Shown in pieces: positions 6,366-20,497 of a stretch of 20,497 bases of DNA. Under the pieces are notes generated by a model that worked only from the letters and a program-made list of their open reading frames with translations, did not search any database and was not told where the DNA came from. Numbering within the stretch: the stretch's first letter is position 1; the number at the start of each line of letters is the position of its first letter. A program made the position numbers and the translations under genes. Source of the DNA: a virus; the IMG/VR virus record IMGVR_UViG_3300042471_000767, positions 1 to 20,497 of that record, one strand, 5' to 3'.

Positions 6366-6636
6366 GTGTACACAAGTTTACACTTAGTTTACACTTAGTG
6401 TAAACCCCCCAAAACCACCTATACTCTCTAGATTCGCAGATTTTAGCCCGTTTTTTGCCATAGGTTTACAAGTTTACACTTTTTTTTAGAATATATTTTT
6501 TTTGACTAGGTGAAAATTTATTTTTTTTCAATTTTGCCAAAAAGTGTTCAAAGTGTTCACTTATTGCGATTGGAGCCAATGGAGGCCGATTTTGGTTTAC
6601 ACTTAGGTGTACACTTAGTGTAAACTAGTGTACACC
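6366..6636. repeat. Iteron cluster, candidate replication origin or operator
   Basis: Non-coding gap between the primase-helicase and the triple-HTH gene. GTGTACAC (6366-6373) is followed by two direct AGTTTACACTT units (6375-6385, 6386-6396) and an inverted AGTGTAAAC (6397-6405); the last two form GTTTACACTTAGTGTAAAC. A third set is GGTTTACA-AGTTTACACTT (6463-6481). AAGTGTTCA is repeated at 6542-6550 and 6551-6559. A final set spans 6594-6636 (GGTTTACACTT, GTGTACACTT, AGTGTAAAC, GTGTACACC) and enters the 3' end of the HTH gene. A very A+T-rich stretch (6481-6540) lies between sets and could be an unwinding element. Origin function is inferred from iterons plus the neighbouring primase. Confidence 0.7.
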
Positions 6637-7071
6637 CTCCTTCTTGGCTTTTCGCACCCAATGTGAGACTCTGTTGTAGTCTAAATTCAGCTCTTTTGCT
6701 ATGTCGCAAGTCCTCCACTTTTCCGCTACCATACGCTCGATTTGTCTAACTATTTTTATACTAAGAGACTTTACTCTTCTCTCATCGGTCAGTTTGAGAA
6801 TATCACATAAGTGATGGTATTTTACACCAGTACTATACATAATTTCTTTATATGGTAGACCTTTCTTATATAGTTCGAGAACCTGATCGGCAGACTTCAA
6901 GTGAGAGCAAGTGTTCTTGGCTCTCTCGTTGGTCAACAGATACTCTTTGTATATATAATTATTGACTAGGTTTTTACTAATATTCATAATAGTAGCTATA
7001 TTCTTATTCATTACTTTAAGTTTATATAGTCTAACTATCTCGTCTTTCTGTTCTTGAGTTAGTGATGTCAT
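6625..7071 (-). CDS. Triple helix-turn-helix DNA-binding protein
   Basis: 148 aa made of three HTH-like units: residues 8-45 (EIVRLYKLKVMNKNIATIM...), 62-94 (QVLELYKKGLPYKEIMYSTGV) and 105-142 (IVRQIERMVAEKWRTCDIAKELNL-DYNRVSHWVR). Each resembles the transposase/resolvase-type HTH. No catalytic domain is attached, so it should act as a DNA-binding regulator or origin-binding protein. Its last codons lie within the repeat cluster, and the stop TAG is at 6627-6625; autoregulation or origin binding through the GTTTACACTT repeats is a direct hypothesis. The start overlaps the upstream stop (ATGA at 7071). Confidence 0.75.
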   Translation of the reverse strand: MTSLTQEQKDEIVRLYKLKVMNKNIATIMNISKNLVNNYIYKEYLLTNERAKNTCSHLKSADQVLELYKKGLPYKEIMYSTGVKYHHLCDILKLTDERRVKSLSIKIVRQIERMVAEKWRTCDIAKELNLDYNRVSHWVRKAKKEGVH

Positions 7072-7286
7072 TTGTCTCCGTAGGTTTCTTCGTAGTACTG
7101 TTCTGAATTAATTTCTCCAACATCTGAATACTGAATCTCTAAATCACATGCTCCGCATTTATAAGCTTCTTTAATTTGTCGCTTTTCCTTTTGCTTTGCT
7201 TCATTTAGAATCATCTGCCAAGTGAATTTATCCTTGTGGATTCCCCAGAGCTTTTCAAATAAGTAGTCAACTGCTGTCTTATTCAT
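7068..7286 (-). CDS. Small paralogous phage protein, copy 3
   Basis: 72 aa. It shares with the two genes transcribed just before it an N-terminal K-T-A-V-[DE]-[YW]-L segment, a central A-K-x-K-E-x-x-Q-I-x-x-A(H/Y) helix and a C-terminal Q-Y-Y-E-E-T-Y-G-D-K. This copy is the most diverged and adds C45-x2-C48-like cysteines (KCGACD). Families of this type are common in Bacteroidota phages, but no function is known to me. Start and stop are both ATGA-coupled to the neighbours. Confidence 0.7.
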   Translation of the reverse strand: MNKTAVDYLFEKLWGIHKDKFTWQMILNEAKQKEKRQIKEAYKCGACDLEIQYSDVGEINSEQYYEETYGDK

Positions 7287-7492
7287 TTCTTTCCGTAGGT
7301 TTCTTCGTAGTAATTCTGTCCGCTCTCATAGGTCTTAACTGCATAGAACCAAGCACCTTCTCTGTGGGCCTCTGCAATCTGATCTCTCTCCTTGTACTTA
7401 GCTATCTCTAATACTTCCTTGGAAGACTTTCCATCATACCATGTGGAAGTTAGTTGCTCATGCAACCATTCTACTGCTGTCTGCTTTTTCAT
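7283..7492 (-). CDS. Small paralogous phage protein, copy 2
   Basis: 69 aa, starting MKKQTAVEWLHEQL and ending GQNYYEETYGKK. A longer reading to ATG 7537 is possible but would run into the upstream paralog; the ATG at 7492 overlaps the upstream stop (ATGA) exactly as in the rest of the operon, so I chose it. It shares the KKQTAVEWL start with copy 1 and the YYEETYG end with copy 3, indicating tandem duplication. Function unknown. Confidence 0.7.
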   Translation of the reverse strand: MKKQTAVEWLHEQLTSTWYDGKSSKEVLEIAKYKERDQIAEAHREGAWFYAVKTYESGQNYYEETYGKK

Positions 7493-7719
7493 TTGTCTCC
7501 GTAGGTTTCGTTGTAGTATTGTTCTCCTGTTTTCCAATATTCGTAATTACCAGCCGTTTGAGTTTTTTTCAATTGCTTACCATGTGCTTGAATTATCTGC
7601 TCCTTCTCCATTTGTAATGCTTCGCTTTTGGTAGCACTTCTACTCATCCAATCAATCTGACCATTTTCATGCTTTTCAAATTGGTCAATTAACCATTCTA
7701 CTGCCGTCTGCTTTTTCAT
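7489..7719 (-). CDS. Small paralogous phage protein, copy 1
   Basis: 76 aa, starting MKKQTAVEWLIDQF and ending GEQYYNETYGDK. The ATG at 7719 overlaps the exonuclease stop by ATGA, which favours it over the upstream ATG at 7749. The central part contains an ALQMEKEQIIQAHGKQ helix. It is the first of three tandem paralogs placed between the recombination pair and the triple-HTH gene. The 3' ends of the three genes carry near-identical DNA (for example CCGTAGGTTTC on the plus strand). No function can be assigned. Confidence 0.7.
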   Translation of the reverse strand: MKKQTAVEWLIDQFEKHENGQIDWMSRSATKSEALQMEKEQIIQAHGKQLKKTQTAGNYEYWKTGEQYYNETYGDK

Positions 7720-8315
7720 ATCACCATACCATTTAAATACTCTCTGCATTCCAATACCTTAGCCTTGGCCATCTCAATTACCTGGGGGTCATACTCGATG
7801 TCAAACTCCTTGATTCTGTACTTGTTTTCCACGTGTGCATAGCTCACAGGCTCCTCGTAAGTCAAGAACTCTGGAGTGTCCTGGAGGGTGTACACCAACT
7901 TGGCCTTTTTTAAGCCCGTCAGGTGCATGTAAACCTGAAGTTGATAGTAGTACCCCATGTCAGGGGAATCGTCAAACAGAGGGAAAGTAAAGCAGTCCCA
8001 CGAGGTCTTAAAGTCATAGACTATACCCTCGTGAAAACAATCGGGAGTACCTGTGAAGAAATCATCTTCGAAGTGGTCAAGGTTCTTAATCATAAAGTCC
8101 TTGTTCATAGCTACCGAGTAAAACTCGATAGCCGTATCTTCTAATGCCAATCCCTTTTGGATGTACTTGGACTTAATCTGCTTCTTTACTCCGTAAATCT
8201 GCTCCTTGTACCAATCCTCTAGGTAGCTCTTAGTTGTCTGAGACAATGATTCTGTTTTACTCCGTGCGTTAGTCATCAATTGACCAAGGGCACTTGCTCT
8301 GCATTTGAAGTTCAT
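7716..8315 (-). CDS. RecB/YqaJ-like PD-(D/E)XK exonuclease
   Basis: 199 aa. Motifs appear in family order: KGLALED with E59, FTGTPD with D92, VYDFKTSWD with D101 and K103, then YYYQLQVYM (Q125). This is the active site of phage-type RecB/YqaJ exonucleases, which resect DNA ends with Mg2+. The N-terminal 55 residues are helical, and the C-terminus is helical and charged. It lies next to an ERF annealing protein with an ATGA overlap (8315), a classic exonuclease-annealase pair for phage recombination. Not distinguishable by eye from Cas4-like relatives, but no Fe-S cysteine set is present. Confidence 0.85.
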   Translation of the reverse strand: MNFKCRASALGQLMTNARSKTESLSQTTKSYLEDWYKEQIYGVKKQIKSKYIQKGLALEDTAIEFYSVAMNKDFMIKNLDHFEDDFFTGTPDCFHEGIVYDFKTSWDCFTFPLFDDSPDMGYYYQLQVYMHLTGLKKAKLVYTLQDTPEFLTYEEPVSYAHVENKYRIKEFDIEYDPQVIEMAKAKVLECREYLNGMVI

Positions 8316-11194: not shown

Positions 11195-11246
11195 TACCTT
11201 TGGTTTGGTTAACCAAATTAAACCTATTTTTTTGTGCATACCTTTG
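11195..11246 (+). promoter_or_regulatory. Tandem late promoter boxes with palindrome
   Basis: Two exact TACCTTTG boxes (11195-11202 and 11239-11246) match the Bacteroidota -7 consensus. Between them TTTGGTTAACCAAA (11204-11217) is a perfect 14-bp palindrome, a likely regulator site. The second box ends only 6 nt before the ATG of the terminase small subunit (11253), implying a very short or absent leader. No canonical -33 TTTG is placed at normal spacing, so an activator may be needed. Confidence 0.55.
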
Positions 11247-11252
11247 TAACAT

Positions 11253-11606
11253 ATGGAAAAGAAACAACGCGGCGGACCTAGGCCTAATTCAGGTAGACCG
11301 CCTAAAATACAGGAAATCAAGCTAATTGAACAGATGGACTCCCTTTGTGTGCCGGATCAAATATGGAAGGCCCTTTTGTATAAATGTGAACAAGGTGACA
11401 CGAACGCTATAAAACTTTGGTTGTCATATCGGTTTGGATTACCGAAGCAACAAATTGACGTTACTTCGAACGGGGAAAAAATCGCGCCGCCTATTCAGTG
11501 GATCGGTAGAAATGTGGCGATCGAAGCGGCAAAGGTAGTAAACGAAGAAGAAGAAGAAGAAAACGAACCTTTGGTAATTGATAATAAACAGACCTACCTT
11601 TTCTAA
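11253..11606 (+). CDS. terS: Terminase small subunit-like protein
   Basis: 117 aa. The N-terminal GGPRPNSGRPPK is a Gly/Pro/Arg-rich DNA-contact segment common in phage small terminases and related DNA-binding proteins. A helical middle (25-60, IWKALLYKCEQGDTNAIKLWL) and an acidic Glu-rich tail follow (EEEEENEP). The stop at 11606 is directly followed by the large terminase ATG at 11607. Position and architecture support small terminase, which selects the packaging site and hands DNA to the large subunit, though the family is weakly conserved. Confidence 0.7.
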   Translation: MEKKQRGGPRPNSGRPPKIQEIKLIEQMDSLCVPDQIWKALLYKCEQGDTNAIKLWLSYRFGLPKQQIDVTSNGEKIAPPIQWIGRNVAIEAAKVVNEEEEEENEPLVIDNKQTYLF

Positions 11607-12979: not shown

Positions 12980-13001
12980 GTATATTTGTCTAAACGAATA
13001 T
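12980..13001 (+). promoter_or_regulatory. Promoter-like block before portal gene
   Basis: TATATTTG (12981-12988), a full match to TAnnTTTG, is followed by TC, TAAACGAATAT (12991-13001), and the ATG at 13005. The same block, differing in two bases, lies before the protease gene at 15188-15209 with the same 3-nt distance to the ATG. The outer ATATTTG and CGAATAT are near-inverted and could pair in RNA with one G-U. Confidence 0.6.
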
Positions 13002-13004
13002 AGG

Positions 13005-14387
13005 ATGGTACTAAGTGCGCTAAGAAATTACCTTGCTCCAACGATTGTTGAAGCTCCAAAGGGTATGGATGCAAATCTATTGAATAGGATGCTATACGGC
13101 CAATTCACGGCCTCAACTATGGTTGTATGGTATGACTCCAACCAGCAGACATTTATAGATAAGGGATACAAGGGAAACGCACTTGTTTATTCTATAATTA
13201 GAAAGATTGCTGAAAAGGGCAAGCAGTGCCCGACTTTTGTTTATAAGGAGACGCAAGCTTCTAAAAAGTTTAAGGGAGGTAAATATAGCGCAAAAGAGTT
13301 AAACAGGTGGCAGAATGCTACATTTAGAAAAAAGGAGCTTGAGGATGTAAGTTACTCCGATCCTGTAAATCAACTTATTAAAAATCCAAATCCCATGCAG
13401 ACATGGAGCGAGTTCTTGGATTCTATGCTAACGTGGTACAATACTAGCGGTGAAATATTTATTTACGGGTTTTCTCCTAATGATGGCTTAAATAAGGGCA
13501 AGATTAAGGAGATGTATGTTATGCCGTCAAACTATGTTGAATTAGTTGCTGGTAACTTGTTTCAGCCTGTAAAGGGTTATAAGTTGATTATTGGAGATCA
13601 GAACATTGAAATTCCGGCAGATCAGGTGTTGCACATTAAGAACACGAATTTGACTTGGGATTTGAATGGAGCTCAGTTAAGAGGTATGCCTCCGTTGTTG
13701 GCTGGTTTAAAGACATTGCAGGCAAATAACGAATCGACAGAGGCGAAGCAGAAGACTTTCCAGAATGGAGGAGCAAAAGGTATTATTTCTCCGAATGTGA
13801 ATAATCCTGAGTTCTGGCCATCCCCTGACCAGAGGGCAAAAATGGATGAGCGGATTGATGAGAGGATAAACGGTAATCAGAACATTAATAAGATTGTTGC
13901 TTCCTCGATTCCGTTGCGTTACGATGCGATTGGATTAAGTCCTGTGGCGATGGACATTATAAACTCACAGAATAGTGATTTGCAGACCTTGTGCGGATTG
14001 TGGGGAGTTAACCCTGTATTGTTCTCCTCTGACGCTACTTATGCCAACTTGGAGCACGCACAGAAAGCATTGGTGACAGATGTAATTATGCCTCAGTTGC
14101 AGTTGATCGAGGAGAAGTTTACAGAGTGGATTGGAGAGTCTTACGGAGCTGATTATATAATTGATTTTGACATATCATCATATTCTGAGCTTCAGCCTGA
14201 TGTAAAGGTTATTTTGGATACTTATGGTAAGTCTCCTTACTTCACGGGTAACGAGGTAAGAAGCTTGTTGAACTGGCACGCAAGTGAAGACCCTGCAATG
14301 GATGTTCATTGGATTCCTAACAATGTAATTCCAAGCGAGGAAGCGTTAGGGAATGCTACAACTGACTTTGTGGATTTCCAAGCCTAA
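13005..14387 (+). CDS. Portal protein (HK97 family)
   Basis: 460 aa. The N-terminal region has the portal pattern FTASTMVVWYDSNQQ... and GNALVYSIIRKIAEKG (about 57-72); the middle has PNPMQTWSEFLDSMLTWYNTSGEIFIY and LHIKNTNLTWD; the C-terminal third has GLSPVAMDIINSQ, CGLWGVNPVLF and the helix-rich wing region up to EEALG. Length and order match HK97-type portals, which form the DNA-entry ring. It sits between the promoter block and the minor head gene, with a short gap to the latter (14388-14390). A weak leader without Shine-Dalgarno precedes ATG 13005. Confidence 0.9.
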   Translation: MVLSALRNYLAPTIVEAPKGMDANLLNRMLYGQFTASTMVVWYDSNQQTFIDKGYKGNALVYSIIRKIAEKGKQCPTFVYKETQASKKFKGGKYSAKELNRWQNATFRKKELEDVSYSDPVNQLIKNPNPMQTWSEFLDSMLTWYNTSGEIFIYGFSPNDGLNKGKIKEMYVMPSNYVELVAGNLFQPVKGYKLIIGDQNIEIPADQVLHIKNTNLTWDLNGAQLRGMPPLLAGLKTLQANNESTEAKQKTFQNGGAKGIISPNVNNPEFWPSPDQRAKMDERIDERINGNQNINKIVASSIPLRYDAIGLSPVAMDIINSQNSDLQTLCGLWGVNPVLFSSDATYANLEHAQKALVTDVIMPQLQLIEEKFTEWIGESYGADYIIDFDISSYSELQPDVKVILDTYGKSPYFTGNEVRSLLNWHASEDPAMDVHWIPNNVIPSEEALGNATTDFVDFQA

Positions 14388-14390
14388 GAA

Positions 14391-15158
14391 ATGAGAAAAA
14401 TAAATTACGCTAAGGTAAGAAGGTCAACGCAAGCTGATTTAAAGAGATACGAACGCCTGGGTGTAAAGATATTTACTGATGCATTGAAATTGCAGGCAAG
14501 GCCAACAGTTCCGTTGATGCCGATGCAGGAGGCTTATATAAAGTTCTATCAGACTGTATTTGTTGATTCTGCAACTAAAGAGTACAATAGGATAAGACAG
14601 GATAATAGAGAGAAGAAGTTTTTGCCTAATGATTTTTTTCTTAGTACTTGGCTAGAGTATATTAAGAATTGGGTTATTCAGAATTTAGGTCAGTTGATAT
14701 TTGAGGTAACAGATACTAGCCAAAAAAAAGTTAATGAGATAGTTGCTCAAGGTATTAAGGATGGATTAAACCCTAGACAGATTGAAGAACTATTGATTGA
14801 GCAGATTCCAGATATTAAGAGAGCTAGGGCTATTGCTAGAACTGAGTCGACAAGGGCTTACAATGAGGGTAAGATGAGGGCTGCGGTTGATTGGGCCAAT
14901 GAGACAGGTACTCCATTATGGAAGATATGGATTCATGGAGGTGCTAAGGAGCCAAGGATTCAGCACATACAAGCACAGAATAAACCAATAAGATTTGATC
15001 AGCCGTTTGTGTTTTTTACCAATGGAATTCAGGTGTTGATGGATAAGCCTGGTGATTTAAACGGAGGAGCTGCTCAGACTATAAACTGCTCATGCGTAGT
15101 AGTTTACGTTTCGGAATCTTACGCTAGAAGGTACTTTAGGGATACCTTTGTTCTATAA
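14391..15158 (+). CDS. Minor head protein (Mu gpF-like)
   Basis: 255 aa. The C-terminal half carries the minor head signature: KRARAIARTESTRAYNEG (about 143-160), IHGGAKEPRIQHIQA (181-195), then a MDKPGDLNGGAAQTINCSC end (217-235; NCSC has C233, C235). This is the phage Mu F / SPP1 gp7-like head morphogenesis family that follows the portal. The N-terminal half is helical and basic. Its position right after portal supports the call. Role: head assembly or DNA injection; the enzymatic possibility seen in some relatives is not shown here. Confidence 0.82.
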   Translation: MRKINYAKVRRSTQADLKRYERLGVKIFTDALKLQARPTVPLMPMQEAYIKFYQTVFVDSATKEYNRIRQDNREKKFLPNDFFLSTWLEYIKNWVIQNLGQLIFEVTDTSQKKVNEIVAQGIKDGLNPRQIEELLIEQIPDIKRARAIARTESTRAYNEGKMRAAVDWANETGTPLWKIWIHGGAKEPRIQHIQAQNKPIRFDQPFVFFTNGIQVLMDKPGDLNGGAAQTINCSCVVVYVSESYARRYFRDTFVL

Positions 15159-15187
15159 GCAGTTTTGTTTGTTAATTTTATTTATTT

Positions 15188-15209
15188 GTATATTTGCTTA
15201 AACGAATAT
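15188..15209 (+). promoter_or_regulatory. Promoter-like block before protease gene
   Basis: TATATTTG (15189-15196), then CT, TAAACGAATAT (15199-15209), and ATG at 15213. TTTG at 15168-15171 with 17 nt spacing fits a -33 box. It is almost identical to the portal block at 12980-13001, including the 3 nt to the ATG, so each probably starts a short-leader transcript. Confidence 0.6.
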
Positions 15210-15212
15210 CAA

Positions 15213-16235
15213 ATGCTAGACAAAGCAGAGCAATCATATTCAGATTATCCAGAAGCAGTTAGAAATAACGCTAAAAGGGTTCTTAAATATGTTGAAGAGA
15301 ACGGATGGGGGCCATGTGGTACTCCTGTTGGAAAGCAGAGAGCAAATCAGCTTGCAAATGGCGAGGCTGTTTCAGTTGACACGATTAAAAGAATGTTTAG
15401 CTATCTTAGTAGGCATGAAGTTGATTTAGAGTCTTCTTCATCTTATTCTGATGGTTGTGGGCTGTTGATGTACGATGCGTGGGGAGGTAAGGCTGCTTTG
15501 GTGTGGAGCAGAAATAAATTAAAGGAATTAGAAAAGACTAGCGATATGGGTTTTGTAACTAAAGGATTAAACCAAGGCTTTACAGATAGCGACATGAAAC
15601 AAGGTATTGTTTCTGGCTACTTTGCTGTTTTCGGCAACAAAGATTTGGATGGTGATGTCATTGAACCAGGTGCATTTGCCAAGACAGTTATGGAGCGTGG
15701 CCCACAGGGCAAGCAGTTAATTAAGTATCTGCTAGATCACGATAAGAATAAAGTTGTAGCAAAAATTACTAATCTATACGAGGATAGTAAAGGACTAAGA
15801 TATGAGGCTAAGATTGGCACTCACACTGCTGGTCAGGACTTTCAAAAAATGATTGAGAGTGAACTGATTAACCAGCATTCTTTTGGGTTTAGAACCATAA
15901 AGGAGCAGTATGATGCACAATCTAAGTCAAATATGATTAAAGAGGTAATGATGTATGAAGGTTCTGCTGTTCAATTCTTGGGCGCAAATCCTGAAACTAC
16001 ATTTATTGATTTAAAAAACGAAGCGGATGCATTTGAATTCCTTAGCAGACTTGAGAAGTTTGTAAAGACATCTGACGCAACTGACGAGACAATAGTCAAA
16101 CTAGAAAATCAACTTAAATCACTTTTGGAGTTTCTAAAGCCAGCAGAGCCTACTTTAGAAATTAAGGAAGCCGAGGAGGTAGAAATAATAACAATTAACG
16201 AACTTAAAAAACAATTTGAATCATGGAAAATCTAA
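15213..16235 (+). CDS. Prohead protease with N-terminal extra domain
   Basis: 340 aa from ATG 15213; an ATG at 15165 would put the promoter block inside the gene, so 15213 is preferred. Residues 12-100 form a separate domain (YPEAVRNNAKRVLKY, CGTPVGKQRANQLANGE, TIKRMFSYLSRHE, LMYDAWGG) found attached to several phage head proteins. From about 128 comes the HK97-type protease: GYFAVFGNKDLDGD, YLLDHDKNK with H176, and NQHSFGF with H222-S223, the catalytic His/Ser area. It cleaves the scaffold-like N-terminus of the capsid protein. The C-terminus (about 285-340) is coiled-coil-like and acidic. It overlaps the capsid gene by 13 nt in another frame. Confidence 0.85.
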   Translation: MLDKAEQSYSDYPEAVRNNAKRVLKYVEENGWGPCGTPVGKQRANQLANGEAVSVDTIKRMFSYLSRHEVDLESSSSYSDGCGLLMYDAWGGKAALVWSRNKLKELEKTSDMGFVTKGLNQGFTDSDMKQGIVSGYFAVFGNKDLDGDVIEPGAFAKTVMERGPQGKQLIKYLLDHDKNKVVAKITNLYEDSKGLRYEAKIGTHTAGQDFQKMIESELINQHSFGFRTIKEQYDAQSKSNMIKEVMMYEGSAVQFLGANPETTFIDLKNEADAFEFLSRLEKFVKTSDATDETIVKLENQLKSLLEFLKPAEPTLEIKEAEEVEIITINELKKQFESWKI

Positions 16236-17494
16236 CAATTGATGCCGTAAAGGCAGTGATTGCAGAAGCTGGCGAAGCTCTTAAGGCTAAGGCGAGCAAT
16301 GCAGAAGTGAAAGCTAATGAGGCTTTCGAAAAGGCTGAGAGCCTACTTAAGTCTCTTAGCTATGTTGTAACAAAGGATGAAGCTGCTGAGATGCAAAAGC
16401 AACTTGACAAACTTGACATTGCTATGCAAAAGAATGCAGTAGAGAAAGAAGTAAGCGCAGAAGATTTCAAGACTGCATTTATTAAGGCTTACGCTCCAGT
16501 TAAAGCTGAAATCGAGCGTTTGAAGAATGAGCCTAACGCTCGTCTTAAGGCTCCTTTGGTATTTGAAATTAACGAGAAGTCAGTTGGAACTATTACTCTA
16601 GCTTCAACTATTGCTAACGAAGCATCTTCAGGACAAGTAACAATTTCCGAGTTTACTGGTGTTGTTTCTCCAATCCGCCAGAGACTACTTGTTTACCTTG
16701 CTAACGCAAGTGTAGGAGCTATCGGAACTCAATATGCAGTATGGGTTGAAGAATACGATCAGCAGGGAACTCCAGTAATGATTGGCGAAGGTGTTGAGAA
16801 AACTCAAATTGACGTACAATACAAGGAGCAGAGAGCTAAGGTTGAGAAGATTGGTGTACACATGAAGGTTTCTATGGAAATGTTGGAAGATGCTGCTTAC
16901 TTGGCTTCTTACATCCAATCTAATGGAGTTAAGCGTGTTGAGACTGTAATCGAAAATCAGTTGTTCACTGGTAACGGAACTTCTCCTCAGCTTGCTGGTT
17001 TGCTTTCTAAGTCTACTACTTTCACTGGAGGTTCTATGGCCGGTGGTGTTGAGTCTGCTACTAACTGGGATGTTATCCACGGAATCATCGCTCAGGTTAG
17101 AGCTGCCAACGGAACTGCAACTGGAGTATTTGTTGAGACTGGACAGTATCACTTAATGCTTTCTGAGAAAGATGCTGAGAAGCAATATATTTTGCCAGCT
17201 GGCGTTACTTTCAACGCTCAAGGTGGTGTAACTGCTTGGGGAGTAAACATCATCCCAACTAACGCTTTGACTGGAACTGCTGCTAACTTCGTAGGTGGTG
17301 ACCTTTCAGTTATCAACGTACGTTTGAGAAGCGGTTTGCAGGTTGCTATCGGAGAGTCTGGTGATGACTTCATCGACAACTTGAAGACTGTAAGAATTGA
17401 GCAGCGTTTGGTGCAGTTTATCTCTGCTAACGATACTCCAGTATTGGTTAAAGGAACTTTTGCTGCTGCAAAGGCTATCCTCGAAACTACCTAA
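16223..17494 (+). CDS. Major capsid protein (HK97 fold)
   Basis: 423 aa. Residues 1-110 are Lys/Glu/Ala-rich and heptad-like, a delta-domain scaffold that the upstream protease should remove. Residues from about 125 form the HK97 capsid core: TITLASTIANEASSGQVTISEF, SPIRQRLLVYLANASVG, EYDQQGTPVMIGEG and a C-terminal RIEQRLVQFI-NDTPVLVKGTF-A strand. Codon use is strongly biased to a few codons (GCT, GGT, AAC, CTT), as expected for a very highly expressed gene. It begins inside the protease 3' end and ends before a strong terminator at 17521-17552. Confidence 0.93.
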   Translation: MENLTIDAVKAVIAEAGEALKAKASNAEVKANEAFEKAESLLKSLSYVVTKDEAAEMQKQLDKLDIAMQKNAVEKEVSAEDFKTAFIKAYAPVKAEIERLKNEPNARLKAPLVFEINEKSVGTITLASTIANEASSGQVTISEFTGVVSPIRQRLLVYLANASVGAIGTQYAVWVEEYDQQGTPVMIGEGVEKTQIDVQYKEQRAKVEKIGVHMKVSMEMLEDAAYLASYIQSNGVKRVETVIENQLFTGNGTSPQLAGLLSKSTTFTGGSMAGGVESATNWDVIHGIIAQVRAANGTATGVFVETGQYHLMLSEKDAEKQYILPAGVTFNAQGGVTAWGVNIIPTNALTGTAANFVGGDLSVINVRLRSGLQVAIGESGDDFIDNLKTVRIEQRLVQFISANDTPVLVKGTFAAAKAILETT

Positions 17495-17520: not shown

Positions 17521-17552
17521 AAAAGGGCGAGAAATTTTCTCGCCTTTTTTTT
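17521..17552 (+). terminator. Strong rho-independent terminator after capsid gene
   Basis: GGCGAGAA (17526-17533) pairs with TTCTCGCC (17537-17544) around a 3-nt loop, with an A-run before and eight T after (17545-17552). Only about 30 nt after the capsid stop, it separates the head module from the downstream modification genes. Confidence 0.88.
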
Positions 17553-17599: not shown

Positions 17600-17776
17600 A
17601 TGGCAGATTTTACAATGTGTAAACCTCAAAGATGCAAGCTAAAATTATCTTGCCTTCGGTTTACTTCTAAGGCTACTGAAGGTCAGGTTTACTTTAATGA
17701 CGAACCATGCAACCACGAAGGGACTGATTGCAAAGTATATTTCAAAAAGAATTGTAAGCCTTGTGGCGAAATATAA
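17600..17776 (+). CDS. Small Cys-rich protein, relative of the 65-aa early protein
   Basis: 58 aa from ATG 17600 to TAA 17774-17776, too short for standard length cut-offs. Seven cysteines: C7-x4-C12-x5-C18, then C37, C44, C52, C55. The C18-L-R-F-T and C44-K-V-Y-F surroundings copy the early minus-strand protein at 871-1068 (C19-Y-R-Y-T, C43-D-M-Y-W), so the two look homologous. A metal-binding role is likely but unproven. It opens the block after the capsid terminator and lies 2 nt before the methyltransferase ATG, so it is probably cotranscribed. Confidence 0.65.
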   Translation: MADFTMCKPQRCKLKLSCLRFTSKATEGQVYFNDEPCNHEGTDCKVYFKKNCKPCGEI

Positions 17777-17778
17777 TT

Positions 17779-18318
17779 ATGAAAAAACCTACAAAAAAAA
17801 CGCTTAATTCAATTGACATGATTAAAATCATGGAATCAATTCCAAATGATGATACCAATTTTCAATATATAGATATGAAAGCTGGAGAAGAGCATTATAG
17901 ATTACTTTCCTGGATTGGTGGGCAGGTAAAAGGTAATATTATGGAATTAGGGACTTTTAGAGGTCATTCAGCTCTTTGTCTATCTAAATCAGGAAACAAG
18001 GTATTTACCTATGATGTTGAAGATTATATTTCTTTAAATCATAAGCCCGAGAATGTTAAGTTTTCAATAATGGAAAATGGTCATAAATTTATTGATGATT
18101 CTTTTGATTTATTGTTTATTGACACAATGCATGATGGAATTTACGAACAAGAAGTATTAAACCATTTAAGAGAAATTAAATGGAAAGGAATAGTTCTAAT
18201 GGATGATATTGTGCTTTTTGATGAGCTTTCTAAACTTTGGGAACAAATTCCAGAGCAGAAAGCAGATTGGACAGATATTGGTCATCATTCAGGTACAGGA
18301 ATAATTTGGTTCAAATGA
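17779..18318 (+). CDS. Class I SAM-dependent methyltransferase
   Basis: 179 aa from ATG 17779; earlier in-frame TTG (17761) overlaps the upstream gene and is not preferred. The Rossmann-fold motifs are NIMELGTFRGHSALCLS (53-69, motif I with E56), VFTYDVEDY (D79, acidic loop), then DLLFIDTMHDGIYEQEVLNH (110-129) and GIVLMDDI (D142-D143), as in the Methyltransf_24 type. The target is probably a sugar, given the flanking glycosyltransferases. The stop overlaps the next start by ATGA. It could also act on a protein or lipid; sequence alone does not tell. Confidence 0.85.
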   Translation: MKKPTKKTLNSIDMIKIMESIPNDDTNFQYIDMKAGEEHYRLLSWIGGQVKGNIMELGTFRGHSALCLSKSGNKVFTYDVEDYISLNHKPENVKFSIMENGHKFIDDSFDLLFIDTMHDGIYEQEVLNHLREIKWKGIVLMDDIVLFDELSKLWEQIPEQKADWTDIGHHSGTGIIWFK

Positions 18319-19625
18319 AATTATCAATTTTAGTTCCTTCAGTAGCAGGCCGAAGAAATACCTTTTTGCCTAAATCATTGGATATGCTTTATGGTCAATT
18401 AGAGGCATTGCCAGAACAAGACCAAAAGGAGGTTGAAATTATTTATTTAATAGATAATAAAACCATTATGCTAGGTGATAAGAGAAATCTTATGATTAGC
18501 ATAGCAAGCGGTAAATACATTTCATTTGTTGATTGTGATGATCGTATTGAGACTGATTACATTTCAACTATTTTACAAGCAATTGATTCTGATGCAGATT
18601 CAATTGTATTTGAGGTTTCTGTTTCCCTAAATGGCAACAATCCTAAAATCTGTTACTATTCTAAAGATTTTCCTAACGACTACAATACAGAGGAAGCATA
18701 TTATAGATTGCCAAATCATATTGCAGTAATAAAAAAGGAAGTTTCTACAAAGGTTTCTTTTCCAAGTTTACCTAGAGCTGAGGATACTGCTTATGCAAAG
18801 ATTCTAAAACCACATCTTAAGTCAGAGTTTAAGATTAATAAAGTTCTTTATCATTATGATTACAGTGATTTAACAACCGTTGCTCAAGAGTATATTCCCC
18901 ACATAAGAAATAAACGAAAAGGTAATATGAATCCAATAGTAGATGTGGTGTTTATTTCAAATGCTACTAAAATGGGGTCAAGAATGACTCAACACGCCAT
19001 TGATAGTTGCATACAAGCAGCAAATGGCTTGGAAGTTAATTGTATTGTTGTAGAAGAAAAAACTAATTTATTCTATAAAAATGCAGCTACCTATAATCCT
19101 CATTCACAATTTAATTATAACAAATTTTTAAATTTTGGTGCAGTTCGAGGAAATGCTCCTTGGGTCATGTTTTGTAACAATGATTTGATATTTAAAAATG
19201 GTTGGTTGCATAATTTGTTGGCTGCTGACTATCCTATTGTTAGCCCTATTGCGATGACTGACTTTAGGCAAAAGGATGTTACAGAAAATGAAATAGGATG
19301 GCAGTGTGGGAGAAACTTATCTGGTTGGGCATTCATGATGAAAAGGTCATTGTATAAAGAGATTGGTGGACTTGATGAGGATTTTGATTTTTGGTTTGCT
19401 GACAATTCTTTAATTGAGCAATTAAAGAAAATTGATATGCCTCCAATGTTAGTACCTTCTGCTAGAGTAAATCATTTGGGTAGTCAAACATTAAAGCAAA
19501 GAAACATTAATGATAGAAATGATTTAATGTGGTCTAAGCTAGAATTATTCAATCAAAAATATAATCAAACTTTATTTTCAGATCATCCAAGATTCTTAGA
19601 ATGGAAACAATCGCAGTCTGCATAA
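18315..19625 (+). CDS. Tandem-domain glycosyltransferase (two GT2-like domains)
   Basis: 436 aa from ATG 18315, which overlaps the methyltransferase stop by ATGA; a frame extended to 18237 would lie inside that gene. Domain 1 (1-200) has KLSILVPSV, YLIDN and FVDCDDR (D73-C-D75, the metal/sugar-nucleotide DxD), then a PRAEDTAYA element (E156-D157). Domain 2 (about 205-436) has VVFISNATK, MFCNNDLIF (N289-D290), GGLDEDFDFWFADN (351-364) and RVNHLGS (H387). Two consecutive GT-A folds suggest sequential sugar transfer. Likely target: virion protein or host surface glycan. Codon use is AT-rich, unlike the capsid gene. Confidence 0.8.
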   Translation: MKLSILVPSVAGRRNTFLPKSLDMLYGQLEALPEQDQKEVEIIYLIDNKTIMLGDKRNLMISIASGKYISFVDCDDRIETDYISTILQAIDSDADSIVFEVSVSLNGNNPKICYYSKDFPNDYNTEEAYYRLPNHIAVIKKEVSTKVSFPSLPRAEDTAYAKILKPHLKSEFKINKVLYHYDYSDLTTVAQEYIPHIRNKRKGNMNPIVDVVFISNATKMGSRMTQHAIDSCIQAANGLEVNCIVVEEKTNLFYKNAATYNPHSQFNYNKFLNFGAVRGNAPWVMFCNNDLIFKNGWLHNLLAADYPIVSPIAMTDFRQKDVTENEIGWQCGRNLSGWAFMMKRSLYKEIGGLDEDFDFWFADNSLIEQLKKIDMPPMLVPSARVNHLGSQTLKQRNINDRNDLMWSKLELFNQKYNQTLFSDHPRFLEWKQSQSA

Positions 19626-20293
19626 CAACGCACAACCGTAAAGAAGTATTTGAAGAAACATTAAGCGAATGGGAAAAGTATTTGCCAAGCAACGCTACAA
19701 TTTTTGTAGTTGATGATGCATCTATAACTCCAGTAAAATCTGATTACCGGTTTGAGCAAAATGTTGGAATAGCTAAGGCTAAAAACAAGTGTTTAGAGTT
19801 AGCTGATAAACATGATCACATTTTTCTTTGTGATGATGATGTAAGACCTAAGTCAGGTGACTGGTATAAGCCATATATTAATTCTGGTGTTAATCACTTG
19901 TGCTTGACTTTTGATAAAAAAAGCAACAATGCTATTTATAGCCCATCAATTAGAGTTAGTGGTGAATATGAAGGTTTAATGACCTATACTGCTCCAAATG
20001 GATGTATGCTTTATTTAAAAAATATATGCCTTCAAGTAGCTGGTGGAATGAGACCTGAATTTGGATTATGGGGATTTGAGCACGTAGAATATACTCAGAG
20101 AATATACGACTTAGGATTGACTCCTGAACGATTTATGGATGTTAAAGGTAGTCTGAATTATTTTGATGTATTAGATTGGCGTTTTGCAGTTAATTCTTCT
20201 TTATCAATTAATGATAGAAGAGAAAGCGGTAGAAAAAACTTGAAACTATATGAAGAGTTTTCAAAGCATCCTGAATTTGTAAATTACAAATGA
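19601..20293 (+). CDS. GT2-family glycosyltransferase
   Basis: 230 aa. Residues 1-12 (AVCITTHNR) and 34-42 (IFVVDDAS, D38-D39) give the nucleotide-sugar strand; FLCDDDVRP (D78-D80) is the DxD; a C-terminal GGMRPEFGLWGFEHVEYTQR (148-167) has the acceptor/base region with E160 and E163. It starts 25 nt before the end of the preceding glycosyltransferase, in another frame, and its stop overlaps the next start (ATGA), so it is tightly coupled. Role as for its neighbours: adding a sugar in a virion- or surface-modifying pathway. GT2 is sure; sugar and acceptor are not. Confidence 0.85.
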   Translation: METIAVCITTHNRKEVFEETLSEWEKYLPSNATIFVVDDASITPVKSDYRFEQNVGIAKAKNKCLELADKHDHIFLCDDDVRPKSGDWYKPYINSGVNHLCLTFDKKSNNAIYSPSIRVSGEYEGLMTYTAPNGCMLYLKNICLQVAGGMRPEFGLWGFEHVEYTQRIYDLGLTPERFMDVKGSLNYFDVLDWRFAVNSSLSINDRRESGRKNLKLYEEFSKHPEFVNYK

Positions 20294-20497
20294 GAATATT
20301 CTACTCAAATCCTTTTAGCTTAGACAAAGATATTGGCAAGGCTTACAATGAGTATTTAAGTTGCTTGAATGCAAATGATGAGGATTGGATAGTAATGCAG
20401 GATGGAGACATCATGTATTTAACACCAGATTGGGGAAAAAGAATAGCTGATGCTTTAATTCTTGATGGTGATAAATTTGGATTGGTTGGATGCTATA
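20290..20497 (+). CDS. Partial glycosyltransferase-like protein
   Basis: 69 codons are visible before the window edge. MRIFYSNPFSLDKDIGKAYN is followed by EDWIVMQDGDIMYLT, where D38-G-D40 in a strand/loop context looks like a GT-A DxD, then WGKRIADALI. Coupled to the preceding gene by ATGA at 20290. It is probably a further glycosyltransferase of the same block; the C-terminal part is not seen, so the family assignment is provisional. Confidence 0.65.
   Translation, partial: MRIFYSNPFSLDKDIGKAYNEYLSCLNANDEDWIVMQDGDIMYLTPDWGKRIADALILDGDKFGLVGCY

Follow-up and report, generated by a model that had tools for sequence, protein, structure and literature searches.

The window, by which we mean the whole 20,497-nucleotide stretch of phage DNA that was analyzed, carries a run of head genes on its plus strand. 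A portal protein gene (13005 to 14387; PHROG_12, 3.8e-52) is followed by a Mu F-like head morphogenesis gene (14391 to 15158; PHROG_2468, 2.5e-37), a prohead protease gene (15213 to 16235; Peptidase_S78, 4.5e-24; also PHROG_80), and a major capsid protein gene (16223 to 17494; PHROG_10, 1.7e-27) that overlaps the protease gene. The protease begins with an N-terminal domain of about 113 amino acids (15213 to 15600; PHROG_2859) that is absent from the 227-amino-acid forms found in relatives. Downstream of the capsid gene, positions 17761 to 20497 read as a methyltransferase/glycosyltransferase-like cassette, judging from the sequence and from how a comparable region is annotated in Cellulophaga phage phi12:1; parts of this cassette are missing in two relatives (G004 and G011). 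On the minus strand, three adjoining small genes at 7068 to 7749 (72, 84, and 86 amino acids) are tandem paralogues with a common C-terminal YYxETYG motif, and their copy number varies among relatives.

Immediately upstream of two of the head genes lies nearly the same 22-nt sequence: GTATATTTGTCTAAACGAATAT at 12980 to 13001 and GTATATTTGCTTAAACGAATAT at 15188 to 15209, which are alike at 20 of 22 positions. Each copy stops 3 nt short of an ATG, that of the portal gene at 13005 and that of the protease gene at 15213. This confirms a preliminary description of the sequence, which reported near-identical blocks at an equal distance from these two start codons. The layout common to both copies is GTATATTTG-nn-TAAACGAATAT. 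Both mismatched bases sit in a 3-nt spacer, and the copies on the plus strand read GTATATTTG-TCT-AAACGAATA-T before the portal gene and GTATATTTG-CTT-AAACGAATA-T before the protease gene. A search of the window that allowed up to 3 mismatches returned no copies beyond these two. The gain or loss of the protease N-terminal domain falls right 3' of the protease copy.

The bare repeat alone is only moderately unlikely to have arisen by chance, as shuffling the window 20 times by dinucleotides produced one equally similar pair of 22-mers; the comparison with relatives is what decides. There, the constant distance to the start codon and the conservation of the block rule out chance. For the motif that relatives share, described below, the first-order Markov expectation is about 1e-5 per 35-kb strand.

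Conservation of the block and its third copy

A scan of IMG/VR with TATATTTGNNTAAACGAATAT returned 34 stretches, and in 33 of them the sequence lay 3 to 4 nt upstream of the start codon of a portal or protease gene. Because such a scan presupposes the motif, we then collected relatives by protein only. What the copies have in common is a bipartite motif, TATATTTG-N3-AAACGAATA, in which 17 bases never vary and the spacer is free. The exact 17-base motif was present in all 22 distinct portal upstream regions (portals at least 86% identical), in all 64 distinct protease upstream regions (56 to 100% protein identity), and in 35 of 36 upstream regions of the major tail protein gene; the pooled set behind these counts includes loci from the motif scan, and the portal and protease lists of protein-collected loci agree. 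Behind the block, mean identity at four-fold sites was 50% for the portal gene, 65% for the protease gene, and 62% for the tail gene, and 115 of the 118 four-fold columns of the portal gene were variable. The N3 spacer took the forms TCT, CTT, TTA, CTA, GGT, CCT, TTT, GCT, GAT, and TTC, always at the same length. The final T of the 22-nt block is not conserved; the base after the motif is A or T, and is A in most relatives. Because the two bases that differ between the window's copies both fall in this free spacer, the motif proper is TATATTTG-N3-AAACGAATA.

Near-complete relatives (G001, 37.1 kb; G003, 35.3 kb; G004, 34.2 kb; G011, 31.5 kb) each contain three perfect copies and no more; all three are on the structural strand, before the portal, protease, and tail genes. 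The third copy precedes a 138-amino-acid major tail protein (Phage_tail_2, PHROG_1407) some 6 to 9 kb further on, and in this phage it would fall past the end of the window. The count of two copies given in the preliminary description therefore holds for the window, and the relatives add a third. Within a genome, the arms of the three copies are 100% identical, whereas their flanks are 33 to 49% identical. In one diverged clade, to which G005 and G020 belong, the block is found at the protease gene only and not before the portal or tail genes.

No DNA match to the window was found in phage records, and no portal relatives were found in cellular genomes (genome_contigs). We also considered that the block might mark a host regulon and rejected this candidate; in genome_contigs and 247 Bacteroidota genomes, its counts lay between about the chance level and double those of the control (37 versus 19 with one mismatch).

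A putative promoter of the Bacteroidota type

The primary sigma factor of Bacteroidota, sigma-A, recognizes a -7 box with the consensus TAnnTTTG (PMC9723704, PMC7366714). In Flavobacterium psychrophilum this box spans positions -12 to -5, and the median leader is 24 nt long (PMC9723704). PMC7366714 cites F. johnsoniae RNA-seq data in which no -33 motif was found. In the window, TATATTTG is an exact match to TAnnTTTG at both the portal copy (12981 to 12988, plus strand) and the protease copy (15189 to 15196, plus strand), and it is invariant in relatives. The copies vary in their -33 element. Before the protease gene, TTTTG (15163 to 15167, plus strand) lies 21 nt before the -7 box and is kept across protease upstream regions, and most tail copies have TTG, 17 nt upstream; at the portal copy, neither TTG nor TTTG was found at the -33 spacing. 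An Escherichia coli-type sigma-70 promoter was rejected as a candidate, as no TTGACA/TATAAT site occurs at either block and the total of such sites in the window is no higher than in shuffles.

We consider it highly probable that the block acts as a late promoter of the Bacteroidota type, present in several copies in a group of uncultivated Bacteroidota tailed phages. A related promoter before a small regulator gene of some relatives (see below) also speaks for this reading; against it stand the missing -33 element of the portal copy, although the F. johnsoniae data lacked such a motif too, and the missing portal and tail copies of the diverged clade. The host primary sigma factor (sigma-A, sigma-ABfr type) would bind TATATTTG as the -7 box. 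Given the -12 to -5 register of PMC9723704, the predicted first base of the RNA is the second A in AAACGAATA (12993 before the portal gene and 15201 before the protease gene, both on the plus strand), and a conserved 12-nt leader (12993 to 13004 and 15201 to 15212) would lead directly into the start codon. The three copies would serve three units, namely, the portal and Mu F-like genes, the protease and major capsid genes up to a terminator, and the major tail gene, and each structural module would be switched on separately. Late timing and separate dosing of the modules are what we infer from this arrangement, and the earlier suggestion that the head genes are tuned apart is plausible.

After the capsid gene, a 13-bp stem with a T run (17521 to 17549, plus strand) is a predicted intrinsic terminator, and one is predicted at the same place in 5 of 5 relatives examined. 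With the block at its 5' end and the capsid terminator at its 3' end, a promoter-protease-capsid-terminator unit is well defined. In the diverged clade, at 56% identity of the protease, two unrelated hairpin terminators, AATCCCTC...GAGGGATT and AACACCTCG...CGAGGTGTT, are predicted just upstream of the protease block and end 22 to 23 nt before its -7 box. Behind such a terminator, transcription of the protease gene would have to restart, most obviously at the block. No intrinsic terminator is present upstream of the protease block in this window. The proposal in the preliminary description that repeated internal promoters precede the head modules is thus supported by the exact -7 box, the -33 TTTTG of the protease copy, the invariance of the motif, and the two terminator positions. 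Elsewhere in the window, only 6 nt separate TACCTTTG from the ATG of the small terminase gene (TACCTTTGTAACATATG, 11239 to 11253); if TACCTTTG is the promoter of that gene, it would give a nearly leaderless message.

The second element and alternative readings

A plain sigma-A promoter falls short as a description of the block because the invariant "nn" of TAnnTTTG and the invariant AAACGAATA exceed what the consensus needs. The second element lies at 12992 to 13000 and 15200 to 15208 (plus strand) and is the same in every block type, whereas the spacer before it varies. Its distance to the -7 box is always 3 nt; its distance to the ATG is 4 nt in 110 of 121 cases and otherwise 5 or 6 nt, or the two overlap. 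With rigid spacing on one side and drifting spacing on the other, AAACGAATA seems to be part of the promoter rather than an appendage of the start codon. It has probably been kept, under strong selection in the structural genes, as a start-site and initial-transcribed sequence, serving promoter opening and escape or fast translation from a short leader. Somewhat tentatively, we also entertain a broader proposal in which AAACGAATA is a second, phage-specific control element over the transcription start of the structural genes; it could be a promoter element of the downstream kind, a site for a late regulator, or a tag at the 5' end of the mRNA. If so, AAACGAATA would let phage messages be preferentially transcribed or translated.

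In one version of this proposal, a late regulator encoded by the phage binds AAACGAATA over the start, and the block is a host -7 box joined to a phage operator. Nine invariant bases past the promoter consensus, at a rigid distance from the -7 box and before a co-regulated set of genes, are what such an operator would look like, and the block is not a host-genome regulon. Potential regulators exist as well. Some relatives encode a small Cro/CI-type protein (HTH_3) about 2 kb before the portal gene (L097, 1388 to 1480; L103, 1288 to 1380; L349, 11676 to 11760), whose gene has a related but looser promoter, TATATTTG-N3-AAAGAATA, AAAGATTA, or AAACGATAC, with a box-to-ATG distance about that of the structural-gene block. 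The window itself encodes a multi-HTH protein of 148 amino acids (6625 to 7071, minus strand), with a C-terminal HTH_23 and a sigma-70 region 4-like N terminus, that diverges fast among relatives (52 to 80% identity). However, no early or regulatory protein common to all carriers was found, and a search for a regulator common to G001, G003, G004, G005, and G011, contigs that are possibly incomplete, returned none. G011 and G005 lack the 148-amino-acid HTH protein, and its gene was rejected as the late activator because these two carry the block; no copy of the Cro/CI-type protein turned up in the window, and AAACGAATA is degenerate in that regulator's own promoter. We therefore view a phage-regulator site as rather unlikely. 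With no regulatory gene common to all carriers, host RNA polymerase is favored as the reader of the block, and it is likely that AAACGAATA is a start-site and initial-transcribed sequence rather than a binding site for a phage regulator.

The block could instead act in translation, as a ribosome-loading leader in a phylum that does not use Shine-Dalgarno sequences or as a 5'-terminal tag of phage mRNA. The short and mostly fixed distance to the ATG fits this, as does an A-rich leader that has no Shine-Dalgarno sequence. But a translation signal leaves TATATTTG unexplained, and it is the ATG spacing that drifts (5 to 6 nt, or overlap), whereas the spacing to TATATTTG never does. In 99 host genomes, AAACGAATA-N4-ATG occurred at about 1.4 times its reversed control and thus is not a general host signal. 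We judge a translational role for the block to be unlikely.

The inverted pair ATATTTG/CGAATAT had suggested a leader hairpin or an operator. Isolated 22-mers do fold better than their shuffles (z of -3.9 and -4.7), but the effect disappears in an 81-nt context (z of 0.0 and -0.8). There is no covariation; the outer (seventh) pair is disrupted in 7 of the 13 types of block, and the remaining six pairs never vary and hence are uninformative on this point. The block is also asymmetric about the dyad, with the variable NNN facing an invariant AAA, and an invariant T and a nearly invariant G before the stem fall outside it. In the register of PMC9723704, moreover, RNA synthesis would begin only after the first arm, which would not be transcribed from there. 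We thus consider it very improbable that the inverted pair acts as a hairpin in RNA or as a dyad operator in DNA, and this part of the preliminary description is not supported. We regard it as extremely improbable that the block is a recombination boundary or the remnant of a mobile repeat shared by descent. It does border modules that change, in that the protease differs in its N-terminal form and the stretch from the Mu F-like gene to the protease gene differs in its insertions, with the block itself unaltered. A neutral boundary, however, would not stay invariant next to genes with 50 to 65% four-fold identity, nor would it always hold one orientation and one distance to the start codon.

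Comparison with known promoters

Little is known of the timing of structural genes in Bacteroidota phages, and a 20-base module that is invariant in dozens of uncultivated phages offers a searchable signature of late transcription units. The block may also prove to be a strong, compact promoter for use in Bacteroidota hosts, and its invariant start-site bases raise the question of what role the initial transcribed sequence plays in a phylum not dependent on Shine-Dalgarno sequences.

Compared with the Bacteroidota sigma-A/sigma-ABfr promoter (TTG or TTTG at -33 and TAnnTTTG at -7), the block shares the exact -7 box, the -33 element in its protease copy (TTTTG) and in most of its tail copies (TTG), and a short leader without a Shine-Dalgarno sequence. 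It differs by the invariant "nn" (TA), by the invariant AAACGAATA at 3-nt spacing, by the lack of a -33 element in the portal copy, and by a leader of about 12 nt in place of the 24-nt median of F. psychrophilum (PMC9723704). Among phages, Flavobacterium phage 11b and Cellulophaga phage phi12:1, whose portals are 28 to 29% identical, have TATATTTG-like boxes before some genes; in contrast, they have no AAACGAATA, longer leaders, and no block before the portal or protease gene. In the literature searched, coverage of which was partial, we found no description of a repeated late promoter with the AAACGAATA composite in Bacteroidota phages, nor of a second control element of the AAACGAATA kind for Bacteroidota. 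Thus, the -7 box and repeated late promoters are already known, whereas their fixed composite with AAACGAATA appears to be new.

In phage T4, one short late promoter motif precedes several structural operons and depends on gp55/gp33. Phage Mu late promoters (PMC4461284) likewise place a short motif before several structural operons for coordinated late expression and need the Mu C protein. The block described here resembles both systems in repeating one motif before structural operons; it differs from them in having no phage factor common to its carriers and in being built around a -7 box of the host type.
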